Shown here: in pieces, positions 1 to 9,430 of the stretch
Position numbering within the stretch: the stretch's first letter is position 1
Layout of the letters: each line of letters begins with the position of its first letter
Assembly: GCA_017429325.1 (NCBI GenBank)
Contig: JAFRPC010000020.1
Span: forward strand, 1-63,224
DNA: 63,224 nucleotides
Source: Oscillospiraceae bacterium
Lineage (GTDB): Bacteria; Bacillota; Clostridia; Oscillospirales; Oscillospiraceae
Direction: 5' to 3'
Notes under the pieces: model-generated
Database searches by the model: none
The model's input: the letters and a program-made list of their open reading frames with translations, nothing else
Told to the model about the DNA's origin: nothing
Made by a program: the position numbers and the translations under genes

Positions 1-1
1 G

Positions 2-901
2 ATCCTGGTTATCGCCGCTTCCGATGGTCCTATGGCTCAGACCAAGGAGCATCTGCTGCTGGCCCGTCAGGTTAACGTTCCATCCGTCCTCGTCTTCCTG
101 AACAAGGTCGACCAGGTCGACGACGAAGAGCTCCACGAGCTCGTCGAGATGGAAGTCCGCGAGCTGCTCGACTTCTACGGCTTCCCTGGCGACGACACCC
201 CCATCATCCGCGGCTCCGCCCTGAACGCTCTGGTCTGCGAGTCCAACGATCCCAACGCCCCCGAGTACGCCTGCATCAAGGAGCTCATGGACGCTGTCGA
301 CAGCTGGATCCCCACTCCCGACCGTAAGGCTGACCTGCCCTTCCTGATGCCCGTTGAGGACGTCTTCACCATCTCCGGCCGCGGCACCGTGGCTACCGGT
401 CGTGTCGAGCGTGGTACCATCAAGAAGATGGAGCCTGTCGAGATCGTTGGCCTGTCCGACGAGAAGAAGACCACCGTCGTCACCGACATCGAAATGTTCC
501 ACAAGCTGCTTGACTTCGCTGAGGCCGGCGACAACATCGGCGCTCTGCTCCGCGGCGTTGACAAGAAGTCCATCGAGCGTGGCCAGGTCCTGGCGAAGCC
601 CGGTTCCATTCATCCCCACACCAAGTTCAAGGGCCAGGTTTACGTCCTGACCAAGGAAGAAGGCGGCCGTCACACCCCGTTCTTCAACAACTATCGGCCC
701 CAGTTCTATTTCCGTACCACCGACGTGACTGGCATCATCACCCTGCCCGAAGGCGTTGAGATGTGCATGCCCGGCGACAACGTCGATATGGACGTTGAGC
801 TGATCACCCCCATCGCCATCGAGAAAAACCTCCGCTTCGCCATCCGCGAGGGCGGCAGAACCGTCGGCTCCGGCGTTGTCATCGGCATCAACGAGGACTA
901 A
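2..901 (+). CDS. tuf: Elongation factor Tu, 3' part (5' end outside window)
   Basis: EF-Tu is the GTPase that delivers aminoacyl-tRNA to the ribosomal A site. The frame is open from base 2, so the gene starts before the window and about 299 C-terminal residues are present. Visible are the end of the G domain, with the NKVD guanine-specificity motif and the SALNAL motif, followed by the two beta-barrel domains. The barrel sequence [12 protein letters not shown] and the C-terminal stretch GRTVGSGVV are near-invariant in bacterial EF-Tu. The gene ends in TAA and is followed by an intrinsic terminator. It is not adjacent to the S10 operon, which begins about 31 kb downstream. Confidence 0.98.
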
Positions 902-931
902 TCTCCAACTGACAAATCCTGAACCATAACA

Positions 932-962
932 ACAGGCCCTCCCGCAGGAGGGCCTGTTTTTT
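932..962 (+). terminator. Intrinsic terminator of tuf
   Basis: Perfect 11-bp stem (ACAGGCCCTCC with its complement) around a CGCA loop, running directly into a T-tract at 957-962. It lies 30 bp after the tuf stop and just before the 3' end of the convergent gene at 975. Confidence 0.92.
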
Positions 963-974
963 GGGGCTTAGATA

Positions 975-3900
975 TTATGACTTTAGGTTTAGGACCTCCG
1001 AAGCGGGGGGCGTCAGGATGCCCTCCAGGGCGTCGGTGATCCCCTTCTTGGCAGCCGGGTCCTCGATTTTCAGGCTCAGGCTCTCGTCCTCCCCCTGGAA
1101 ATGCAGGCCGGCGCCTTTCAAGGGGGACGGAAGCTTCTCCGGATTCCCGTAGTACTGCCGGTCCCAGCACTGGAGCTCGTCGCAGAGCCGCAGCAGCCAG
1201 GCGACGGGCTCCGGTCCGCAGCCCGGTTCCAGCCCGGTCTCCAACGGGATGCGGAAGTCGCCCAGACGGACGCCCTCTATGGCAAGCTCTGTCATCCGCT
1301 CGCCGTTCCAGTCCTTTTTAATGTTGTGCAGGGCCACGGCGTAGGCCGCCCGCTCCGCGTAGTCCTCGTAGGCGGGGGCAGCGTCCCGCATGGCTTGCAG
1401 CTTTCCTTGCTGCACCGAGTTCAGCTCCTCCTTCGGAAACTCCTTGTAATACTTGCAAAGGGTCTGCTGCATAAACAGCAGCATCCCGGCGCTGACGATG
1501 CCGTGGTCGAAGTAGCTGCGGCCCGCATGCTTTCCCTGGGTCTGCTCAAAATAGCTCCGGATCGGGTTGTCGTCCTCACGGATCGTCAGCAGGACGCTTT
1601 TCCCCTTGCCTATGAAGCGATCCAGCGCGGTCTTGATCGGATACATCCGCTCAATGCGCTGCGTCTGTCGTCCCAGCCGGGCCAGGATGCCTTTTTCGGT
1701 GCCTTTTCCAAAGATGTTTTCCGTGAAAAGCTTTGTCAGCGGTTGGGAGAGGGCTTCGTTCATCCGCTGATACACGACGGCAGCCGCCGCGTCGTCGCCG
1801 CTGGTCCTGTCGTTCTCGATCACGTAGCCCGCGTCGTGGTACAGGGCCGCCAGGATCCAGACGGCCAGGAAGGCCTTGTCTTTCAGGCCGACGTCGTCCA
1901 TAGCCTTGCGGACCCTGCGCTGGTTCTCATAGAGATAGAGGCCCAGCAGGAAGACCTTGAACATGTGGGTCGTGTGGTCGCGGTATTTGGGATAGAACGC
2001 CTTGTCAAATTCCAGGTCGGTCAGGTGCTCGTAGTCCGGGGGCAGGCCCAGCTCCGGGTGATTATTCCAGATGGCCCGCATCAGCTCCAGGGAGCCGCGA
2101 TACCGGTCTCCCTCGTTGGGCCCCAGGGCTTTGAGCAGGTTTTCGCAGTCCGCATCGAAGTCCTTCACCGCCTCTTGGTACAGGGGGGAGTCCGCCGCCC
2201 AGAGCAGCAGGTCCCGGTTGACGCCGGGCTCCAATTTCGTTTCCAGCATAAGCTTCCTCCATTTCGGTTCCGGCGCCCGGGTCCCGTGCTCCCGCAGCCA
2301 TGCGGGGAAGTCGGGATTCCGCTGCCGCAGAAGGCCCAACAGGATGATGCGGTCCAGCCTGCCCGGTTCGCCATGCAGGAGCCGGGCTGCCTCCTGATTG
2401 GTATCGAGGAGCAGGGTCCTGTATTTCTCCGGAGAATCGCTTGTTTCTTTCTTCAAAGCCTCGACTGTCTCCGGGGTGGCATAGGGCAGCACGGCGGCGG
2501 TATCGTTCAGCGCCTCGCGCAGAGACGCGCTTCCACGCCCCGAAAGCATCTGCGCTGCCTTCAGAAGGGTCCGGCCAAAGAGGGGCTCCAGCAGCTCTGC
2601 CACCCGGAACTCCTTTTCCTCGCCCTCATTGTTGTCGATTGTCTTTTCCGGGTCTTTTTGATATTTTTTTATGAGGGGCTCAAGCGCATAGTCCGCCACT
2701 GCGCCGTCCCAATCCGCCCGGACCCGCTCCTGCTCCAGGACCAGGCGCATGTCGGCCACGGCCTCCAGCAGCAGGCGCTGGGCCTCCAGGAAAAGGCCGC
2801 AGGGCTCCCCACTCCCGTCCTCCGGGCGCCAGAGGGTCAGATGGAGCAGCCGCTCGTCCGGTTTTGCCTCCAGCAAGAGACTGTCCTTCCCCTCCCGGAG
2901 CCGGATGCCGTAACGCCAGATCGCCCCGTCACAGTGCTCGTAGAGGGCGAGCGTAACCCGGTGGAGCAGGTGGACCGGCAGATAGGTCAGCTGCCAGGTA
3001 CAGCGGATGGGGCGGCCCTCCGGCGCCAGCATGGGGGGCGGGCTGACCCCCATGAGCTCGGGAATAAAGATCCTATCGTCCTTGAGCACATAGGCCCGCC
3101 GGAACTTCCGCATGATTTCCAAAATATAATTTGGTCCGTCTCCGTCATAGCGATAGCTGATATCTACCGTCGGGAGGTTCCGGTTCGTCAGTAGCTCTTT
3201 GAATTCTGCCCTGGAGAGGATGCCGCCGCCGGAGCAGCCGACGCCGTTCCAGAGGACCCGGTAGACGCCGTTGGTCAGCCAATCGGGATTCAGCACCTTG
3301 CAGTCCATCAGGGCCGCCCCCTGGGGCAGGCCCTGATGATAACTGAAACAAACCCCCAAGTCATTGAACCAATCCAGCAGCCACATCCGGATGGAGGCGT
3401 TGACCTCGCTCTCCCCGCCCAGGCCGTGCCGGGCGCAGACATCCAGATAGTCCCCGAAGCTGATAAAGTCCACCTTTTTTTCCTGCATCTTCTGCATCTC
3501 GTCCCGGATGGCGGCCCAGGCGGGGGGAAGTTCCAACTTGACGCTGTCTAACTTTTCTACCTCGTCTATGATGGGCTTCGTCAGCATTTTGTTGAAATCC
3601 TCGGGACTGTCATCCACCGCCGAGTAATAGATGACTGCTTTCAAGGCGGGACAGAGCGCTCGCAGCTTTTGTTCATCCACCTCTTTTTCTACCTTTGCGG
3701 TAACAGTGTGCCATTGATTCACCACCAGCAGCACCGAGACGCCCCGGGAATAGCCCGCCACCGTGCGCAGCCATTTTTCCGCCTGGGGCATGACCTTGTC
3801 CTTGTCCTTACCGCTGACAACTATCACATAGCAGCTCCGCTCCGTCAGGAAGCAGTGGTGCATGGATTGAAGAATCTCCTGGCAGCCGAAGTCCCAGAAT

Positions 3901-4793
3901 TTGACGGCAGGCCTGCCGGGGGGCGAATAGGGGCGGATCTTGACGCCGGGGGTCGTGTCCTCCCGGAAGTCTATCATCGCGCCGCCCGCCTGAATGCGCT
4001 CGATGGTGTGGGTCTTGCCTACGCCGCTCTCTCCCAAAAAGATGACCTTGCCCTCGTTGACCTTCACCCGGTCCACGTCGTAGTAGGCGGCTAGGACCTC
4101 CTCCTTCGGCAGTTGGAAGAGCGCGGCGGGCTGCCGGGCGACGGTGGAATCGCCTAAAGAAAAATAGAAAATTTGCCGGAGGCAGAAGTCGGGCACCTCC
4201 TCCAGCCGCAGACCACGACAGAACAGGAGAGAAAGCTTTTTGCAGCTCTCCAACGGAGAGAGGTCCGAGACCTGGGTGTTGTTCAGCCAAAGTGATTGAA
4301 GCCGCGGCAGCCCCGCCAGGGGGCTGAGCTCCGAAACCTCGGTGTTGTCCAGGGAAAGCCTTTGAAGCTGCGACAGCCCCGCCAGGGGGCTGAGGTCCGA
4401 GACCTGGGTGTTATTCAGAGAAAGAATTTGAAGCTGCGGCAGCCCCGCCAGGGGACCGAGGTCCGAGATCTGGGTGTTGTCCAGGTAAAGCGTTTGAAGC
4501 TGCGGCAGCCCGGCAAGAGGAGAGAAGTCCGTCAAGTCCGTTTTACGGAGATCCAGCCAATTCAACTCGGGGCAGCTCTTCGGCAGCAGGGCCAGGAGCT
4601 CCGGCTCGACAGAAAACGCGCCGTCCCGCTGCGAAATATCATCGTCTGATTGACGGATCTCCCGCAGCGCCCGGAGCTGCCGACGGGCAGCCTCCGCCGC
4701 CGCGCCGCCCTCGCGCACGGTGCGGAGCAGAAGCAGGGCTTCTTTCAGTTTCATTTCTGTTTTGAGTTGGTCGTTCTCTCTGTTCTGATCCAT
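975..4793 (-). CDS. LRR-Roc-COR-HD multidomain protein (bacterial Roco family)
   Basis: A 1272-residue protein. Residues about 75-190 are five leucine-rich repeats of the LSxLSPLAGLPQLQ type. A Roc GTPase domain follows, with P-loop GESGVGKT at 254-261 and a G3-like WDFGCQE near 300-306; the usual second Gly is Cys, and the NKxD position reads NQW, so guanine specificity may be weak. About 440-690 looks like a COR domain (DLGVCF, LNPDWLTNGVYRVL). A helical linker leads to an HD-hydrolase-like C terminus: H939-H943, LYHD near 985, FDHG near 1095, ALHN near 1155 and LCDEL near 1205. The start at 4793 has GGAGG eight bases upstream; the longer upstream frame reads through intergenic repeats and is rejected. 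Roco proteins are nucleotide-regulated signalling dimers. The HD domain suggests a nucleotide or phosphate hydrolase output, which is inference. The gene stands alone, divergent from the phosphoesterase gene. Confidence 0.85.
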   Translation of the reverse strand: MDQNRENDQLKTEMKLKEALLLLRTVREGGAAAEAARRQLRALREIRQSDDDISQRDGAFSVEPELLALLPKSCPELNWLDLRKTDLTDFSPLAGLPQLQTLYLDNTQISDLGPLAGLPQLQILSLNNTQVSDLSPLAGLSQLQRLSLDNTEVSELSPLAGLPRLQSLWLNNTQVSDLSPLESCKKLSLLFCRGLRLEEVPDFCLRQIFYFSLGDSTVARQPAALFQLPKEEVLAAYYDVDRVKVNEGKVIFLGESGVGKTHTIERIQAGGAMIDFREDTTPGVKIRPYSPPGRPAVKFWDFGCQEILQSMHHCFLTERSCYVIVVSGKDKDKVMPQAEKWLRTVAGYSRGVSVLLVVNQWHTVTAKVEKEVDEQKLRALCPALKAVIYYSAVDDSPEDFNKMLTKPIIDEVEKLDSVKLELPPAWAAIRDEMQKMQEKKVDFISFGDYLDVCARHGLGGESEVNASIRMWLLDWFNDLGVCFSYHQGLPQGAALMDCKVLNPDWLTNGVYRVLWNGVGCSGGGILSRAEFKELLTNRNLPTVDISYRYDGDGPNYILEIMRKFRRAYVLKDDRIFIPELMGVSPPPMLAPEGRPIRCTWQLTYLPVHLLHRVTLALYEHCDGAIWRYGIRLREGKDSLLLEAKPDERLLHLTLWRPEDGSGEPCGLFLEAQRLLLEAVADMRLVLEQERVRADWDGAVADYALEPLIKKYQKDPEKTIDNNEGEEKEFRVAELLEPLFGRTLLKAAQMLSGRGSASLREALNDTAAVLPYATPETVEALKKETSDSPEKYRTLLLDTNQEAARLLHGEPGRLDRIILLGLLRQRNPDFPAWLREHGTRAPEPKWRKLMLETKLEPGVNRDLLLWAADSPLYQEAVKDFDADCENLLKALGPNEGDRYRGSLELMRAIWNNHPELGLPPDYEHLTDLEFDKAFYPKYRDHTTHMFKVFLLGLYLYENQRRVRKAMDDVGLKDKAFLAVWILAALYHDAGYVIENDRTSGDDAAAAVVYQRMNEALSQPLTKLFTENIFGKGTEKGILARLGRQTQRIERMYPIKTALDRFIGKGKSVLLTIREDDNPIRSYFEQTQGKHAGRSYFDHGIVSAGMLLFMQQTLCKYYKEFPKEELNSVQQGKLQAMRDAAPAYEDYAERAAYAVALHNIKKDWNGERMTELAIEGVRLGDFRIPLETGLEPGCGPEPVAWLLRLCDELQCWDRQYYGNPEKLPSPLKGAGLHFQGEDESLSLKIEDPAAKKGITDALEGILTPPASEVLNLKS

Positions 4794-5338
4794 TTCTGCG
4801 CCTCCTCCGGCAAAGCCGGTTTGAGTTTCTGTTGCTTGCTGCGTGCTGCGGCCTTCCTTTTCGCGTCTGTAGGGGCTGCTCTTACCCGCAGGGTGAGCAG
4901 CCCGGCATTCGGCACGAATGCAATTTGCCGCAGGCAAATCCGGGGCGGTCCCGAAACGGAAACGCGGCTGAATCGCCCTGCGGGCGATTGTTCGCCTGCG
5001 GCGAACCGGGCGGCTCATCCGCCCGGCGGCGGATAAGAGCCGCACCCTACGGGGCGACACGGGCGTTTAATAAGCGCCCCTACGGCATCGGACCGCCGTT
5101 TCCCGCCATAGGGGACGGTTCTCCCGTCCCGCCGTAGGGGCGGTCATTGACCGCCCGGCATTCGGAACGAATGCAATTTGCCGGAGGCAAATCGAGGACG
5201 GTCCCGAAACGGAAACGCGGCTGGATCGCCCTGCGGGCGATCGTTCGCCTGCGGCGAACCGGGCGGCTCATCCGCCTGGCGGCGGATAAGAGCCGCACCC
5301 TACGGGGCGATGCGGGCGCAAGTGGGCGGTTTTTCCAT

Positions 5339-5367
5339 ATTATACTATATTTCGACTTGCCTGTAAA
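5339..5367 (-). promoter_or_regulatory. Predicted promoter for the Roco gene
   Basis: On the minus strand, TTTACA (5367-5362), a 17-bp spacer, then TATAAT (5344-5339). It overlaps the plus-strand promoter for the phosphoesterase. Read by eye; spacing and -10 are canonical for the housekeeping sigma factor. Confidence 0.6.
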
Positions 5368-5386
5368 GAGCGGGGCGTGATATAAT
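5357..5386 (+). promoter_or_regulatory. Predicted promoter for the phosphoesterase gene
   Basis: TTGCCT at 5357-5362 and a perfect TATAAT at 5381-5386 with an 18-bp spacer, about 118 bp ahead of the start at 5504. Confidence 0.6.
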
Positions 5387-5503
5387 GGGCGCAAAGACGC
5401 AAGCGCGGAGCGGGCGGGCGGAGCGATGAGGGCATCGCTCCCTACGGAACGCGGCGCGGACCACGCGGGCGCGGGACGGCAAATTGGGGAGGGAGGCGCG
5501 GAC

Positions 5504-6247
5504 ATGGGCTTGTATGCCATTGGGGACCTGCATCTGCACTTTCAGTCGGAGTGCAGGGCGCCGATGCAGCGCACGGAGCGGGTGTGGCGGAACCACGAGG
5601 CGCTCTTTCGGCAGAACTGCCAGCGGCTGCTGACAGAGGAAGACACCCTGGTCTTAGTGGGAGACCACAGCTGGGGGAAGAACCTGGCCCAGTGCGAAAA
5701 GGACCTGGAATACATCGCGGCCCTGCCCGGCAGGAAGATCCTGCTGCGAGGGAACCACGATAGGTTCTGGGACGCCGGAAAGACGGAAAAGCTCAACGCC
5801 CTCTATGCCGGGCGGCTGAGCTTCCTCCAGGGGAACTACTTCACCTACCGGGATTACGCCCTGGTGGGGACCAAGGGCTACTGCTTTGAGGGGCCCTTCT
5901 ATTTGGACCGCCGGGGCAAGGTCATGGGCTGGGACGAGGAAGCGGAGGCGAAGGCGGAGAAGATCATCCGGCGGGAGCTCCTGCGGCTGCGGGACTCCTT
6001 CGAGGCGGCCCGCCGGGACGGGCACAACCGCTTTCTCATGTTCCTGCACTACCCGCCCACGTCGATTTTGGAGCGCCGGAGCGCCTTCACCGACCTGGCG
6101 GAGGAGTACGGGGCCCATCAGGTGATCTATGCCCACAGCCACGGGGAGACCCGCTTCCACAACAGCATCGAGGGGAACTTCCGCTCCATCGAATACACCC
6201 TGGTATCCGGGGACTGTCTGCGGTGGGTCCCCCACCGGGTAGTGTGA
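5504..6247 (+). CDS. Calcineurin-like metallophosphoesterase
   Basis: A 247-residue cytosolic protein with all five metallophosphoesterase motifs in order: GDLHLH (7-12), GDHSWG (53-58), GNHD (83-86), LHYPP (181-185) and AHSHG (210-214). These residues bind a dinuclear metal centre and hydrolyse phosphoester bonds. The tight spacing and lack of a signal peptide resemble the uncharacterised 'predicted phosphohydrolase' family of Firmicutes (COG1768-like, from memory). The substrate is unknown. The start at 5504 is chosen because GGGAGGGAGG precedes it and the first residues lead straight into the beta strand before motif I; an upstream in-frame ATG at 5426 lies in repeat sequence. The gene is monocistronic. 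Confidence 0.9.
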   Translation: MGLYAIGDLHLHFQSECRAPMQRTERVWRNHEALFRQNCQRLLTEEDTLVLVGDHSWGKNLAQCEKDLEYIAALPGRKILLRGNHDRFWDAGKTEKLNALYAGRLSFLQGNYFTYRDYALVGTKGYCFEGPFYLDRRGKVMGWDEEAEAKAEKIIRRELLRLRDSFEAARRDGHNRFLMFLHYPPTSILERRSAFTDLAEEYGAHQVIYAHSHGETRFHNSIEGNFRSIEYTLVSGDCLRWVPHRVV

Positions 6248-6264
6248 GGGATATAAAATCGGCT

Positions 6265-6386
6265 GTATCTATTCAGTCGCCCCCTTTTTCGTAGGGGCGG
6301 ATGCCCACATCCGCCCTCGTTTGCAGGCAGCAGTCGGGAGGTAGGGCCGATGTAGGCATCGGCCCCTACGGCGACTGAATAGATAC
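6265..6386 (+). mobile_element. 122-bp MITE, copy 1 (inside a terminator arm)
   Basis: The terminal inverted repeats are GTATCTATTCAGTCGCC at 6265-6281 and its exact complement at 6370-6386. The element is bounded by a perfect 8-bp direct repeat AATCGGCT at 6257-6264 and 6387-6394, which is a target-site duplication. The interior carries two TAGGG-type palindromes (about 6291-6317 and 6340-6368). By eye it is identical over all 122 bp to the copy at 51053-51174, which is inverted. It codes for nothing. An 8-bp duplication fits mobilisation by a transposase of an 8-bp-target family; which one is not known. Confidence 0.93.
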
Positions 6387-6387
6387 A

Positions 6388-6423
6388 ATCGGCTCTGTGT
6401 GTCGAGGGGCACACAGAGCCGAT
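6388..6423. terminator. Hairpin between the phosphoesterase and anti-sigma genes
   Basis: Perfect 14-bp stem, ATCGGCTCTGTGTG paired with its complement at 6410-6423 around an 8-nt loop, then CTTGTTTG. The T-tract is weak on either strand. The MITE target site AATCGGCT is the first part of this stem. The target duplication therefore regenerated the 5' arm and left the hairpin intact. Confidence 0.65.
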
Positions 6424-6440
6424 CTTGTTTGCGCGGAACG

Positions 6441-6507
6441 GCGGACGGCTGAGAGCCGTCCCTACAGACGCAGGGGTCCTGCGGACGGCTGAGAACCGTC
6501 TCTACAG
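6441..6507. repeat. Two tandem TAGGG-type palindromes
   Basis: Two near-identical 27-bp palindromes at 6441-6467 and 6481-6507, reading GGACGGCTGAGAGCCGTCC and GGACGGCTGAGAACCGTCT, each followed by CTACAG. They end one base before the stop codon of the minus-strand anti-sigma gene. The same stem recurs at about 29785 and 30025. Confidence 0.8.
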
Positions 6508-7959
6508 TTAAGGGGCGGGCTGTGCGGGGAGGGTGAATTCCTGGCCGTCTACGAGGACGGCGGCCAGATCGGCGGGGTCCAGGGGCTGGCTGAAGGTCAT
6601 GCTTGCGCGCACGGTACCGTCACGCTGACCGATGAGCCCCCAGTTATCCGCGAAGTGGTCTGTGGTCGGTTTCTCCTCCTGCTGCCAGTCGTACAGCACG
6701 GTCTCCCGGGTCCCGTCCCGGAAGATCAGGGTGATGACGGGACAGCCCAGGCCGTAGGCTTCTTCCCCTTTCACGCCCGTGACGCTCAGGTTGATGGGGT
6801 CCACGCTGACGGTCTGCCAGCTGATGTGGTCCGTCGGCTCGCCCTGAGGGTCCGAGAAGGTGACGGCGCCGGGGACCAGGGACTCCAACTCCACGTCGAA
6901 GAGGTAGTAGGGGTGTCCCATGGTGTCCCCTTCCTCATGGATCTCCAGCAGCTCAAAAGAGATCGAGTCTCCGACATGGTTGTGGGGCTGGCTGGAGGAG
7001 AATCCGATCAGATAGCGGCGCAGACCTTCCTCCGAGACGATCAGCTTGGGAGCGGTCAGATGGCCGCTGACCTGGCTTGTGCGGTTCGTAACGGCGAGCT
7101 CCGGAACGAAGTCCATGTGAGCCGCACCCCAGTCCGTCAGCGCCTTCACGTCCATGACGGCGTAGATCGCGCTGGGGCTGGCCGTCAGGGAGCGCAGGGA
7201 GAAGCGGAAATCCTTTGTCTGGGCCGCCGTGGCGTAGTGGGGTCCGACCCGGGCCGTCAGCTCTTCGCTATTTCGCTCCATAGCGTCCAGGGGGAAGGTC
7301 GCCAGCGCGGGCAGTTTGCCGGGACCGGTGAGACAGAAGACGATTTTTGCGTCCTCGGCCAGGGGTCCGTCCAAAGGCGCCGACAGCCAGAGGGTATCCA
7401 TCCAGGGTACCTCACTTTCGCTGCGTGCGGCTTCCGTCTCATATCCCAGGAAAGACAGGGTCAGGCCGCTGTCCCGGAAGGCGGGGACGCTCTCTTCCCT
7501 GGCGGTCAGTCTCACCCAGGCCCGGAGGGTCCCGTCCTTGGCGGAAAGCTCAAAAAGGTAAAGATTGTAGTCGCCCAGCTTTGCCTTGACCCAGTCCGCA
7601 TAGCCGAAGTCGGCGGGGATCGCCGCTTCGTCGTCCGGCGCGGGCTCGTAGCTCTGGGCGTGGCTGTCCAGGACCTCGCCCACGGGGCCGAATTCCTCCG
7701 CAAAGCGGAAGGCGCCCAGCCTCCAGGCGGCGAAGACGGAGCCGCCCAGCAGCAGGATCGCCGCCAGGGCAGCCGCCAGGATCGCAGCGGGCCGGAAGCG
7801 ACGACGGACCGGCTTGACAGCACGAGCCGGGCCCTCCTCCGCCCCGTGCAGCCGGGCCAGGGTCCGGGCCCGCACCCGGGCGGCACTGCCGCCCCGGGGC
7901 TTCAGGTCCTGCCCCGCGTCCTCGAGGCAGTCCAGCAGTTCTGTGATGTGATATTCCAT
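6508..7959 (-). CDS. Membrane-anchored anti-sigma factor-like protein
   Basis: A 483-residue protein. About 57 N-terminal residues are cytosolic and basic, one transmembrane helix spans about 58-78 (AAILAAALAAILLLGGSVFAA), and the remaining 400 residues are probably extracytoplasmic. The gene lies directly downstream of an ECF sigma gene on the same strand. This is the usual arrangement for anti-sigma factors of the DUF4179/RsgI-like type in Firmicutes: the short cytosolic part would bind the sigma factor and the exterior part would sense a signal. The start at 7959 is preferred over 7971 because the GGAGG overlaps the upstream ATG. The large beta-rich exterior has no motif I recognise. Confidence 0.7.
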   Translation of the reverse strand: MEYHITELLDCLEDAGQDLKPRGGSAARVRARTLARLHGAEEGPARAVKPVRRRFRPAAILAAALAAILLLGGSVFAAWRLGAFRFAEEFGPVGEVLDSHAQSYEPAPDDEAAIPADFGYADWVKAKLGDYNLYLFELSAKDGTLRAWVRLTAREESVPAFRDSGLTLSFLGYETEAARSESEVPWMDTLWLSAPLDGPLAEDAKIVFCLTGPGKLPALATFPLDAMERNSEELTARVGPHYATAAQTKDFRFSLRSLTASPSAIYAVMDVKALTDWGAAHMDFVPELAVTNRTSQVSGHLTAPKLIVSEEGLRRYLIGFSSSQPHNHVGDSISFELLEIHEEGDTMGHPYYLFDVELESLVPGAVTFSDPQGEPTDHISWQTVSVDPINLSVTGVKGEEAYGLGCPVITLIFRDGTRETVLYDWQQEEKPTTDHFADNWGLIGQRDGTVRASMTFSQPLDPADLAAVLVDGQEFTLPAQPAP

Positions 7960-8006
7960 AGATACCTCCAATTTGTTACACCTTTTCTTTTCGCTCCGTC
8001 GTCATT

Positions 8007-8034
8007 AGGGCCGATGTGGGCATCGGCCCCTACG
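8007..8034. repeat. TAGGG-type palindrome between sigma and anti-sigma genes
   Basis: AGGGCCGATGTGGGCATCGG followed by CCCCTACGG. It folds into a perfect hairpin in the 81-bp gap between the stop of the ECF sigma gene and the start of the anti-sigma gene. It could lower anti-sigma expression relative to sigma. Confidence 0.8.
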
Positions 8035-8040
8035 GCGTGG

Positions 8041-8574
8041 TTATACCTTGTCCTTCAGGGCGATGCGGAGCTTCTCGCGGCCCCGGCGGAGGCGGGATTT
8101 CACCGTGGATTCCGGCATGTCCAGCTCCCGGGCGATCACGGCGATGGGCTGGCAGTGGTAGTAGTACCGGAGAAAGATCTCCCGGTCCCCGGCCTCCATG
8201 TCCAGCACCGCGGCCCGGACCGTCCGGTCCCGCTCCTCCCGCTCTAAGGCCTGCTCCGGCCCCTCTTCGTCGATGACGAGCAGGTCGTCGTCCAGCGAGA
8301 GGGTCAGGCCCCGGTCCCGGAGCTTCTGACGAGCCTTGTTGCGGGCCACGCCGCCCAACCAGGGCCGCACCGTCTCCACGGTCAGCCGGTCCGCCCGCTC
8401 CCAGAGCACCAGGAACACGTCGGAGGCGACCTCCTCCACGTCGGCCTCGCTCATGGAGCCGCCGATGAGCCAGCGGATCACGGTGCAGACGTAGGGGGTG
8501 TATTTGTCAATGAACCAGGCAAGGGCGTCCTCCCTGCCGTGCTGCAGCCGCAGCAGCGCCGTGGCCTCTGTCAA
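8041..8574 (-). CDS. ECF-type RNA polymerase sigma factor
   Basis: A 177-residue protein with the two-domain ECF layout. Region 2 is at about 15-80 (WFIDKYTPYVCTVI, then DVEEVASDVFLVLWER, the core-binding and -10 recognition helices). Region 4 is at about 115-170 (LRYYYHCQPIAVIARELDMPESTVKSRLRRGREKL, a helix-turn-helix reading the -35 element). The predicted start is TTG at 8574; no in-frame ATG precedes it, and the ATG slightly upstream is in another frame. The anti-sigma gene follows after 81 bp. A GCAACC-type promoter element upstream suggests autoregulation. Confidence 0.9.
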   Translation of the reverse strand: MTEATALLRLQHGREDALAWFIDKYTPYVCTVIRWLIGGSMSEADVEEVASDVFLVLWERADRLTVETVRPWLGGVARNKARQKLRDRGLTLSLDDDLLVIDEEGPEQALEREERDRTVRAAVLDMEAGDREIFLRYYYHCQPIAVIARELDMPESTVKSRLRRGREKLRIALKDKV

Positions 8575-8630
8575 GCTTCTTCATCTCCCTGTCATAAGGT
8601 TTGCGTGGGTTTTGTTTGACGACCGTCACC

Positions 8631-8660
8631 CTATAATCGCAATTTTGGGGAAAAGGTTGC
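8631..8660 (-). promoter_or_regulatory. Possible ECF-type promoter for the sigma operon
   Basis: The minus strand reads GCAACCTTTT (from 8660), then GATTATAG about 16 bp on, about 60 bp before the TTG start. GCAAC/GAAAC -35 elements followed by a pyrimidine run are typical of promoters used by ECF sigma factors, so the sigma factor may drive its own operon. Confidence 0.35.
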
Positions 8661-8693
8661 ATCGGTATGGAAATTTTTTCAGAAATGCGGGCG

Positions 8694-8732
8694 AAAAGCC
8701 GGTCCCGCGTGTCATCCGGCACGCGGGACCGG
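8694..8732 (-). terminator. Intrinsic terminator of the SIMPL gene
   Basis: Perfect 13-bp stem, CCGGTCCCGCGTG with its complement, at 8699-8711 and 8720-8732 around an 8-nt loop. On the minus strand it is followed by CTTTT. It lies 27 bp after the SIMPL stop and upstream of the sigma promoter, insulating the two units. Confidence 0.8.
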
Positions 8733-8758
8733 CCTTTCGGCTGTCTTGTGAGCGTTTC

Positions 8759-9430
8759 TCAGAGCAGCTCCCAGACGAAGACGGCGGTGTCCTGGAGCTC
8801 GATGTCCTGGGGGCGGAAGGCGGCGCTGAGACTGCGCTTGGCCTGTAGGGCGCCGTTGGCCATAGCCTGGGGCATGGCCTCCATGTCCAGCATGGTCTCG
8901 GATTGGAAATTCAGGCGGTTCACGTCGTAGTCGATGCGCTGGAGCTCGCCCAGACGGCGGCCCGCCGCGGCGCAGAGGGTCTCCGCCCGCTCCCTGGCCC
9001 GGGCCGCGGCGGAGCGCAGCAGCGCAGCCTCTAACTTCTCGGGCTCCCGGACCGTGAAGCGGACCTGGAGCTCCGGCTCGGCCTTGCTCTCCGCCACGGC
9101 GGACAGGGCCTCGCCCAGCCGGGCCGGGTCAAAGTCGAAGCGCAGGAGCTGGTCGTAGCTGCAGTTGTAGCCCGCGAAGGCCGTGCGGTAGTCGTTGTTC
9201 TCGTCCCGGACGCTCTCGTACTCGGTGTTGACGTGGAAGCCCGCGGTCTGGAAGTCGGCGGCGGCAAAGCCCACGGCGCACAGAGCCTTTTCCAGGGCGG
9301 CCACCTTGCGGTCGGCCCCTTGCAGGGCCTCGTCGTAGTCCTTGTCCTTGGCCCAGAGGCGGAAGCTCAGCTCCACGGTGTCCACGGGCGCCGAGACCTT
9401 GCCGATGCCCTTGACGGTGACGGTTTTCAT
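8759..9430 (-). CDS. SIMPL domain (DUF541) protein
   Basis: A 223-residue protein. The N terminus TVTVKGIGKVSAPVDTVELSF and the later GFxxxDFQTAGFHVNTEY and TVREPEKLEAALLRSAAARARERAETLCAAAGRRLGEL segments are the hallmark of the SIMPL/DUF541 family, related to Kappa-B-like and YggE proteins. The molecular role of the family is poorly defined; YggE members affect oxidative stress. There is no signal peptide, so this member is probably cytosolic. The start at 9430 is supported by AGGAGG nine bases upstream; an in-frame extension to 9502 runs into the divergent rsmG promoter. Monocistronic, with its own terminator. Confidence 0.85.
   Translation of the reverse strand: MKTVTVKGIGKVSAPVDTVELSFRLWAKDKDYDEALQGADRKVAALEKALCAVGFAAADFQTAGFHVNTEYESVRDENNDYRTAFAGYNCSYDQLLRFDFDPARLGEALSAVAESKAEPELQVRFTVREPEKLEAALLRSAAARARERAETLCAAAGRRLGELQRIDYDVNRLNFQSETMLDMEAMPQAMANGALQAKRSLSAAFRPQDIELQDTAVFVWELL

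Follow-up and report, generated by a model that had tools for sequence, protein, structure and literature searches.

Prokaryotic proteins that combine leucine-rich repeats (LRRs), an AP-GTPase (Roc) domain and a COR domain have been described as predicted counter-invader systems bearing at least 24 C-terminal domains, according to the part of Kaur et al. 2021 drawn on here (eLife, PMC8195603). A structurally characterized protein of this type, Chlorobium tepidum Roco (PDB 6hlu, 8r4b), is reported to become monomeric when GTP binds (PMC5714945, PMC11052575). Bacterial LRR-GTPase receptors are relatives of human LRRK2, and very little is said to be known of their physiological role (PMC6337361).

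Here, we compare these systems with a gene from an Oscillospiraceae bacterium, located in a window of 63,224 nucleotides (the whole stretch of DNA analyzed). We estimate a probability of about 0.6 that it encodes a single-gene NLR-like conflict protein, in which LRRs would sense, a Roc–COR unit would switch, and an exchangeable HD domain would act as the effector. Because such proteins are described by Kaur et al. 2021, the novelty is lower than the first-pass annotation implied; that paper already predicted variable effectors on LRR-Roc-COR proteins, so the window protein would represent HD as a further effector on a scaffold of a known, predicted type (PMC8195603).

Domain architecture and nucleotide-binding motifs

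The open reading frame at 975–4793 on the minus strand is real, running from an ATG at 4793, with the Shine-Dalgarno sequence GGAGGAGG 7 bases upstream, to a stop at 975. In order along the chain come LRRs, Roc and COR, followed by a C-terminal domain that bears an H..HD..H..H..D residue set. The features are as follows.

975..4793, minus strand: whole gene, LRR-Roc-COR-HD, 1272 amino acids (ORF, start codon, Shine-Dalgarno)
4221..4577, minus strand: leucine-rich repeats, approximately residues 73–191, 22-residue (66-nt) units (Pfam LRR, direct repeats)
3714..4049, minus strand: Roc GTPase domain, residues 249–360, with GESGVGKT, WDFGCQ and NQWH (Pfam Roc)
3051..3527, minus strand: COR-A domain, residues 423–581 (Pfam COR-A)
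2724..3008, minus strand: COR-B-like region, approximately residues 596–690 (sub-cut-off Pfam COR-B; C. tepidum Roco match to residue 634)
2394..2543, minus strand: junction of the exchangeable module, approximately residues 751–800 (identity profile, ends of Roc–COR matches)
987..2225, minus strand: putative HD effector module, residues 857–1269, the part common to the window protein and the P-loop protein L044 (blastp)
1158..1982, minus strand: putative HD core, residues 938–1212, with RDH..H, HD.GY, DHG..S, LHN and CDELQCWDR
4796..5079, no strand: intergenic stretch upstream of the gene, belonging to a repeat interspersed in the same genome

In a Pfam scan of the full protein, LRR_4 (E 2.8e-22), Roc (E 1.9e-14), and COR-A (E 3.6e-21) score above cut-off, and COR-B (E 0.25, residues 596–653) scores below it. 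Roc is followed directly by COR, the arrangement of Roco proteins, and phmmer matches the protein to PDB entries 6hlu, 4wnr, and 3dpu; its LRR-Roc-COR part aligns with C. tepidum Roco (6hlu) over residues 99–634 against 335–863, with an E-value of 1.4e-71. The repeats are also visible in the DNA as 132-nt direct repeats with 66-nt spacing at 4260–4589, which are 62–83% identical to the reference copy. Together with the HD residues described below, these matches bear out the first-pass annotation of an LRR-Roc-COR protein with an HD-type C-terminus.

The G1 (GESGVGKT) and G3 (WDFGCQ) motifs are as first described. G1 is intact, G3 reads GCQ, and G4 reads NQWH, without the usual lysine and aspartate. 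Altered nucleotide use, as originally proposed, is unsupported by the G3 cysteine because this residue is private to the window gene: 14 of the 16 Roc proteins compared have GG and one has AG. The proposal stands as a valid question through G4, where the change is common to all three Roc-HD proteins among these 16 (NQWH, NQWH, and NQWA). G4 is NCWD or NCWE in the six HNH-type proteins compared and in a truncated protein (L022), and NKAD, NKCD, NKID, NKWK, NRWD, or NEKD in the remaining six.

An HD-type C-terminal domain

Judged by its motifs, the C-terminal domain is probably an HD metal-dependent phosphohydrolase or phosphodiesterase. The relevant residues are R938-D939-H940-x-x-H943, H986-D987, D1096-H1097, H1156-N1157, and D1205-E1206; the H..HD..H..D pattern reported in the first-pass annotation is thus present, with the residue numbers given there off by one or two. 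Pfam HD scores 14.3 bits (E 0.05) in the full protein and 16.8 bits (E 0.0088) in the C-terminal 582 residues alone, both under the 22-bit cut-off. Within the module family, HD is the most common Pfam match (19 of 42 members, with four for the next family).

Conservation provides further evidence. All 89 aligned HD-module sequences have H943, H986, D987, H1097, H1156, and D1205 without exception, in an alignment whose median top-residue frequency is 0.49, and four of these residues (H943, H986, D987, and D1205) correspond to the H...HD...D metal ligands of the HD superfamily. The RDH..H and CDE.Q.W motifs served as search or selection patterns for these sequences, which accounts for part of the invariance of these motifs; H986/D987, H1097, and H1156 lie outside those patterns, with one of the 89 rows (L131) coming from a scan that used the HD.GY motif. 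Conservation of the ligands exceeds chance. Profile comparison by hhalign is weak, with a best probability of 20.5% and one of the two best alignments spanning only 12 columns, and gives an E-value of 0.001 for HD versus 0.06–0.44 for controls. A search of the PDB with the HD part returned no sequence relative, only three kinase matches with E-values above 1.

The sub-cut-off scores of single proteins and the weak hhalign result would also fit a domain that is no HD hydrolase, or a catalytically dead one, serving as an adaptor or oligomerization part. Against it stand the expected metal ligands, present in 89 of 89 sequences, and HD as the one recurrent family, and we consider this explanation quite improbable. 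A metal-dependent HD enzyme remains the preferred reading.

Exchange of the C-terminal module

The whole architecture is kept in a paralogue in the same genome (46% identity over residues 89–1268; 43% by blastp) and in a homologue from a rumen genome (L043; 41%). Both retain the C-terminal residues, contrary to the pattern of loss that the first-pass annotation named as grounds for rejecting its reading. The three Roc-HD proteins form a clade with 100/100 support in a Roc–COR tree of 16 rows, and the fusion is rare, having been seen in two genomes. Twelve COR-A matches occur across 23 genomes of the genus (two HD, seven HNH, one TIR, and two unassigned), patchily distributed over six genomes including the one studied here.

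Similarity to congeneric Roc–COR proteins fades after residue ~750 in the identity profile, and Roc–COR matches end at residues 622–755. Given this fading and the other C-termini in congeners, the C-terminus represents a swapped module: HD, HNH, and TIR occupy the same place behind an LRR-Roc-COR core within one genus, with a recognizable swap point, as in the proteins of Kaur et al.

The module also occurs outside this scaffold. Residues 857–1269 match the HD module of L044 at 36% identity (blastp, E 8.9e-71), an otherwise unrelated P-loop protein with no LRR, Roc, or COR match, whose gene adjoins a serine recombinase gene. Its putative P-loop and Walker B motifs were read by eye, and a search for the protein class of its N-terminus found none. 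A contig scan with the whole protein as query returned no relative, and a profile scan of contigs returned 388, of which the best 80 were examined. These comparisons suggest that the HD part is a module also carried by other kinds of protein, and an exchangeable weapon of a bacterial self-defense system.

Stand-alone relatives and neighboring TIR genes

The wider HD-module family consists of stand-alone HD-RyR proteins (frames of 565–799 residues), whose HD part is 18–25% identical to the window protein. Those scanned have no LRR, Roc, or COR match, and eight of the nine scanned have a Pfam match to a C-terminal RyR domain, three of them above cut-off. A TIR gene lies within four ORFs at 31 of 78 HD-RyR loci, under half, but the TIR model behind this count and its Fisher test was seeded from near neighbors, so this first measure of enrichment is circular. 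The enrichment of TIR genes next to stand-alone HD-RyR genes held when it was measured again in two ways. A split-half model identified TIR in 32 of the 273 ORFs at most two positions away versus 3 of the 273 that lie five or more positions away (p 9e-8). Applying the same TIR pattern to all ORFs gave 22 of 273 near, then 2 of 244, and 1 of 273 far. The ORFs were longest-first, non-overlapping frames, so that a gene lying under an antisense frame may be missed, and four of 80 loci were left out (L043 and L044, not HD-RyR; L087 and L121, where no HD frame was found).

Phage RyR proteins bind or cut TIR-made cADPR signals, and one degrades 2'cADPR and 3'cADPR, according to the portion of a preprint used here (PMC13232231). 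This precedent and the TIR enrichment raise the alternative that the HD module breaks down a nucleotide signal of immunity, as an off-switch or counter-signal and without killing, in which case HD-RyR proteins would clear TIR-made signals. However, the stretches examined around Roc-HD genes showed no TIR gene, the window protein has no Pfam RyR match, and an off-switch would be odd in a slot otherwise filled by HNH and TIR effectors. We regard this alternative as improbable.

Under the preferred effector reading, one HD module could be a portable immune effector coupled to different switches: covalently to an LRR-Roc-COR GTPase, covalently to L044 with its unclassified P-loop part, and, among more distant relatives, to a TIR-made diffusible nucleotide through a fused RyR domain. 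We offer this broader scheme tentatively, as possible rather than probable. The TIR/RyR-triggered branch would be an unnamed Thoeris-like system of Clostridia, Coriobacteria, Chloroflexi, and some archaea.

Genomic setting

Pfam was run on 73 of the 115 window frames, and the 25 of 68 families listed are housekeeping ones, among them ribosomal proteins, EF-Tu, SecY, and citrate lyase; a defense island in the window is unsupported on these families. PADLOC, on the same 73 frames, some of them antisense, reported 20 families, with mad3 and mad8 in two ORFs each and RmrA models, CARF3, capH, PglW, and others in one ORF each. No PADLOC-DB defense-protein model matched the window protein or its C-terminal part alone (0 families each). 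The neighborhood survey proposed in the first-pass annotation thus had a mixed outcome, negative for the window and the Roc-HD genes and positive for the stand-alone relatives.

The intergenic region upstream of the gene has 50 matches in its own genome, itself included, with a second copy at 5153–5318 (94%). Congener DNA similarity to window positions 1–9000 stops at the tuf stop (902–905) and resumes at 5495–5504, at the metallophosphatase gene, which places the gene in a variable location. The two congener flanks lie on separate contigs, so no empty site is demonstrable, and the comparison yielded no clean insertion site. The HD module had no match in 50,697 phage records. The whole protein matched 43 plasmid records, none covering 80% of it, and the 15 listed fall within residues 51–719 (LRR and Roc–COR). 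Viral contigs yielded one stand-alone HD frame, on a contig matched again in a second search.

Second messengers are common substrates of HD superfamily enzymes. Given such substrates and a housekeeping neighborhood, the protein might instead be a GTP-controlled phosphodiesterase of ordinary signaling, such as a second-messenger hydrolase, with no immune role. It also counts in favor of this that bacterial Roco proteins have served as structural models with a largely unknown physiological role (PMC6337361, in the part consulted). Ordinary signaling nevertheless appears unlikely: sister genes carry HNH nuclease and TIR, effector domains of conflict systems, in the HD position, the distribution within the genus is patchy, and TIR genes are enriched beside HD relatives.

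Proposed mechanism and comparison with known systems

From the observed comparative anatomy and module exchange, we infer a route through sensing, GTP control, catalysis, and immunity. The LRRs would sense a trigger, and the Roc–COR GTPase would act as a switch, probably via a dimer–monomer change like that shown in C. tepidum Roco. Switching would unleash the putative C-terminal HD enzyme, which may attack nucleotides or nucleic acid and thereby stop the infected or stressed cell. The HD part would be one exchangeable effector among several, with HNH nuclease or TIR taking its place in congeners, and the same module would serve the P-loop protein, with a more distant family serving RyR proteins, many of them beside TIR genes.

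If true, bacterial LRR-GTPase receptors would gain an HD hydrolase as a further weapon, and it would become testable whether a bacterial Roco protein controls a killing enzyme through its GTP turnover. Proteins from one genus that bear HD, HNH, or TIR on a shared Roc–COR scaffold would allow a clean comparison, and what the HD module cuts could be approached in parallel through the HD-RyR proteins encoded next to TIR genes.

Like the proteins of Kaur et al. 2021, the window protein combines fast-evolving N-terminal LRRs, a Roc–COR core, and a variable C-terminal effector, and occurs in a genus with several copies per genome bearing different effectors; unlike them, it carries HD, a domain unnamed in the part of that text used here, which lists GT4, TIR, DRHyd, caspase, trypsin, FGS, and EADs among at least 24 (PMC8195603). 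C. tepidum Roco shares the LRR-Roc-COR order and ends in ~150 residues of unknown structure, and is thus without an HD module as described there (PMC11052575). The window protein also differs from it in G4, where NQWH lacks the usual lysine and aspartate. HD-RyR proteins, in turn, have the same invariant HD residues, whereas they stand alone and end in RyR. The bNACHT and Avs proteins are built on a STAND ATPase core, where the window protein has a Roc–COR GTPase. Like bNACHT (PMC12169576) and Avs, which are NLR-like antiphage proteins, it would unite a sensor, a nucleotide switch, and an effector in a single polypeptide. The kinship of logic with LRR/NTPase immune receptors proposed at the outset is supported.

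Domain architecture of the window gene

The gene and the repeat beside it lie as follows.

975-4793, minus strand: window gene, 1272 residues in one open frame, ATG start with GGAGGAGG ahead of it
4796-5079 and 5153-5318: interspersed intergenic repeat directly upstream of the gene

An alternative, longer frame reaches position 5060, and its extension lies inside an interspersed repeat for which the genome has 50 matches, counting the copy itself. The first-pass annotation had described an LRR-Roc-COR protein with a C-terminal HD domain. In a Pfam profile search, the LRR, Roc and COR-A parts were borne out above the cut-offs, whereas COR-B and HD fell below them. The LRR-Roc-COR part matches the sequence of the C. 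tepidum Roco protein (6hlu, E 1.4e-71). The LRR stretch contains direct repeats 132 nt long that recur every 66 nt and share 62-83% identity with the reference copy. This suggests a recent expansion of the LRR repeats.

The C-terminal part as a swapped module

Three proteins share the Roc-HD architecture: the window protein, a paralogue in its own genome (46% identity, 43% by blastp), and a homologue, L043 (41%), on a contig from an uncultured Oscillospiraceae member of the rumen. They form one 100/100 clade on Roc-COR in a 16-row tree. Pattern-guided searches, one of them covering the best 80 of 388 relatives, found the fusion in two genomes.

Non-HD Roc-COR proteins align with the window protein only as far as residues 622-755. 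In a windowed identity profile of six of the eleven partner rows, identity is mostly 14-32% across residues 501-750, with two rows dipping to 6-10% at 651-700; it is 4-16% at 751-800 and 0-6% beyond, except that the three HNH rows have 10-14% at 1101-1150. Paralogue identity climbs to 54-70% at 851-1000 and then stays at 24-40%.

COR-A is present in 7 of 250 genomes of the family. Within the genus, 12 matches occur in 6 of 23 genomes (own included), over the cut-off in five of the six. The C-termini of these 12 proteins are HD in two, HNH in seven, TIR in one and unassigned in two, one short and one partial. All seven HNH C-termini have an HNH-type Pfam match, with PF01844 over the cut-off in four, and the TIR C-terminus is also over the cut-off. 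In a single genus, the same slot therefore holds a nuclease, a TIR domain or an HD domain. On sequence grounds, the C-terminal HD part is a swapped module.

The congeneric genome G004 has four (L024, L026, L029 and L150), three with HNH C-termini and one with TIR. The third Roc-COR gene of the window's own genome (L022:1604-4552, genome G000) ends shortly beyond COR, no effector being recognisable there, and its Roc-COR falls in the HNH clade (100/99). A 3382-residue frame at L153:2026-12171 has a COR-A match and, on visual inspection, parts that resemble NACHT and WD40.

Assignment of the C-terminal domain

The C-terminal domain carries the following motifs.

R938-D939-H940-x-x-H943
H986-D987-x-G-Y
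D1096-H1097-G-x-x-S
L-H1156-N
C-D1205-E-L-Q-C-W-D-R

H940, H943, H986, D987, H1097, H1156 and D1205 are invariant in 89 aligned sequences (median top-residue frequency 0.49), with the invariance of the CDE and DH motifs partly built in because both served as patterns: the scan for relatives used LCDE[LA]Q[CE]W and the DH..H motif, and later selection required the CDE or DH motif. Pfam HD matches 19 of 42 members scanned singly (best E 1.8e-4), against four for the runner-up family; it scores L043 on its own at 20.0 bits, where the cut-off is 22. Profile-profile comparison returned E 0.0011 against a 4-row HD-GYP-like set over 54 aligned columns, E 0.0011 against a 19-row RNase Y-like set over only 12 aligned columns, both labels being our own, and E 0.012 against a third set of two rows. 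The controls gave 0.44 for Roc, 0.056 for COR and 0.21 for TIR, and all probabilities were low (best 20.5%). Sequence search found no solved-structure relative of the HD part. In our judgement, the C-terminal domain is probably HD (probability about 0.85).

GTPase motifs

The G3 cysteine, read earlier as a sign of altered nucleotide use, occurs in the window gene alone among 16 Roc proteins compared; because it is private to this gene, it is no evidence for a new mechanism. In the three Roc-HD proteins the G4 motif is NQWH (twice) or NQWA; the HNH group and L022 have NCW[DE] there, and the other proteins compared are variable. Having lost the canonical Lys and Asp of G4, the three Roc-HD proteins may be less specific for guanine.

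HD modules outside the Roc-COR scaffold

A C-terminal 582-residue query matched in 5 of 198 related genomes; of the 391 genomes searched in the class, a profile matched 7, own included. Among the best 80 of 388 relatives examined from a profile scan of genome contigs, all but L043 and L044 are stand-alone, the remaining 78 loci having frames of 565-799 residues. RyR matches were found in eight of nine stand-alone HD proteins scanned, three over the cut-off; those scanned gave no LRR, Roc or COR match. Four of the nine came from the 198-genome search, and two of these four lie on contigs equal in length to those of two of the best 80.

The locus L044 (5271-9161) shares HD module residues 857-1269 (36% identity, E 8.9e-71) and gave no LRR, Roc or COR match. 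Its N-terminal part differs; by our reading it carries GRGSGKS as a P-loop and a stretch resembling Walker B, and it found a single weak match, with stop codons, across 341 genomes of the class. A serine recombinase gene adjoins L044.

Genomic neighbours

A role in phage defence had been suggested for the window gene. The Pfam families shown for the window are housekeeping and count against this; TIR genes are enriched beside the stand-alone HD relatives. In a split-half model of 76 loci, TIR genes account for 32 of the 273 ORFs at most two positions from HD-RyR genes, for 7 of the 244 that are three or four positions away, and for 3 of the 273 at a distance of five or more. A TIR gene lies within four ORFs in only 31 of the 78 HD-RyR loci (L045-L122). 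Some lie a few bases from the HD-RyR gene on the same strand (L091:7737-10412, L107:7527-11831, L086, L114, L119). Of four TIR neighbours scanned, three have TIR_2 over the Pfam cut-off, and one ThsB_TIR match is barely above it. TIR plus HD-RyR is a candidate TIR-signalled HD effector system, for which no name was found. A second family of neighbours occurs once in each of 17 loci, and in 15 of these it lies no more than two ORFs from the HD-RyR gene; in two members scanned, a DUF4231 match was under the cut-off, as was a SLOG family match in one.

L064:9538-11163, L048:9581-11245 and 15 other loci: second neighbour family

Phage RyR proteins are reported in a preprint to bind or cut TIR-made cADPR signals (PMC13232231). 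Together with the TIR neighbours, this link places the HD family in signalling-immunity company, independent of the Roc-HD fusion. In the stretches of sequence around the Roc-HD genes and L044, TIR genes were not detected; for L043 the stretch is a contig of 6.3 kb, and genes can be missed in the ORF set. PADLOC gave no match for the window protein or its C-terminal part, nor did phage records for the HD module. These negatives, like the fusion's presence in two genomes in the pattern-guided searches, weigh against a conflict role.

Proposed mechanism and comparison with known systems

C. tepidum Roco is reported to be mainly a dimer without nucleotide and mainly a monomer once GTP is bound, and its LRRs are described as moving a long way in the change (PMC5714945, PMC11052575). 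In the best model for the window protein, LRRs binding a trigger would alter the Roc-COR cycle, which would in turn free or align the HD active site; the sensing, its control by GTP and what the HD domain acts on are all inferred.

No paper on a Roc-COR-HD or HD-RyR immune protein was among the matches listed (titles and abstract starts, with subscription literature mostly outside coverage). AP-GTPases with COR are mentioned in ternary systems (Kaur et al. 2020, PMC7159879), and proteins combining LRR, AP-GTPase and COR with one of at least 24 C-terminal domains have been proposed as counter-invader systems (Kaur et al. 2021, PMC8195603). The sentence of the 2021 paper that names C-terminal domains omits HD. 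Going by the text of that paper, the Roc-COR-HD architecture is real and interesting, and adds a putative new effector to an already predicted kind of LRR-Roc-COR protein.
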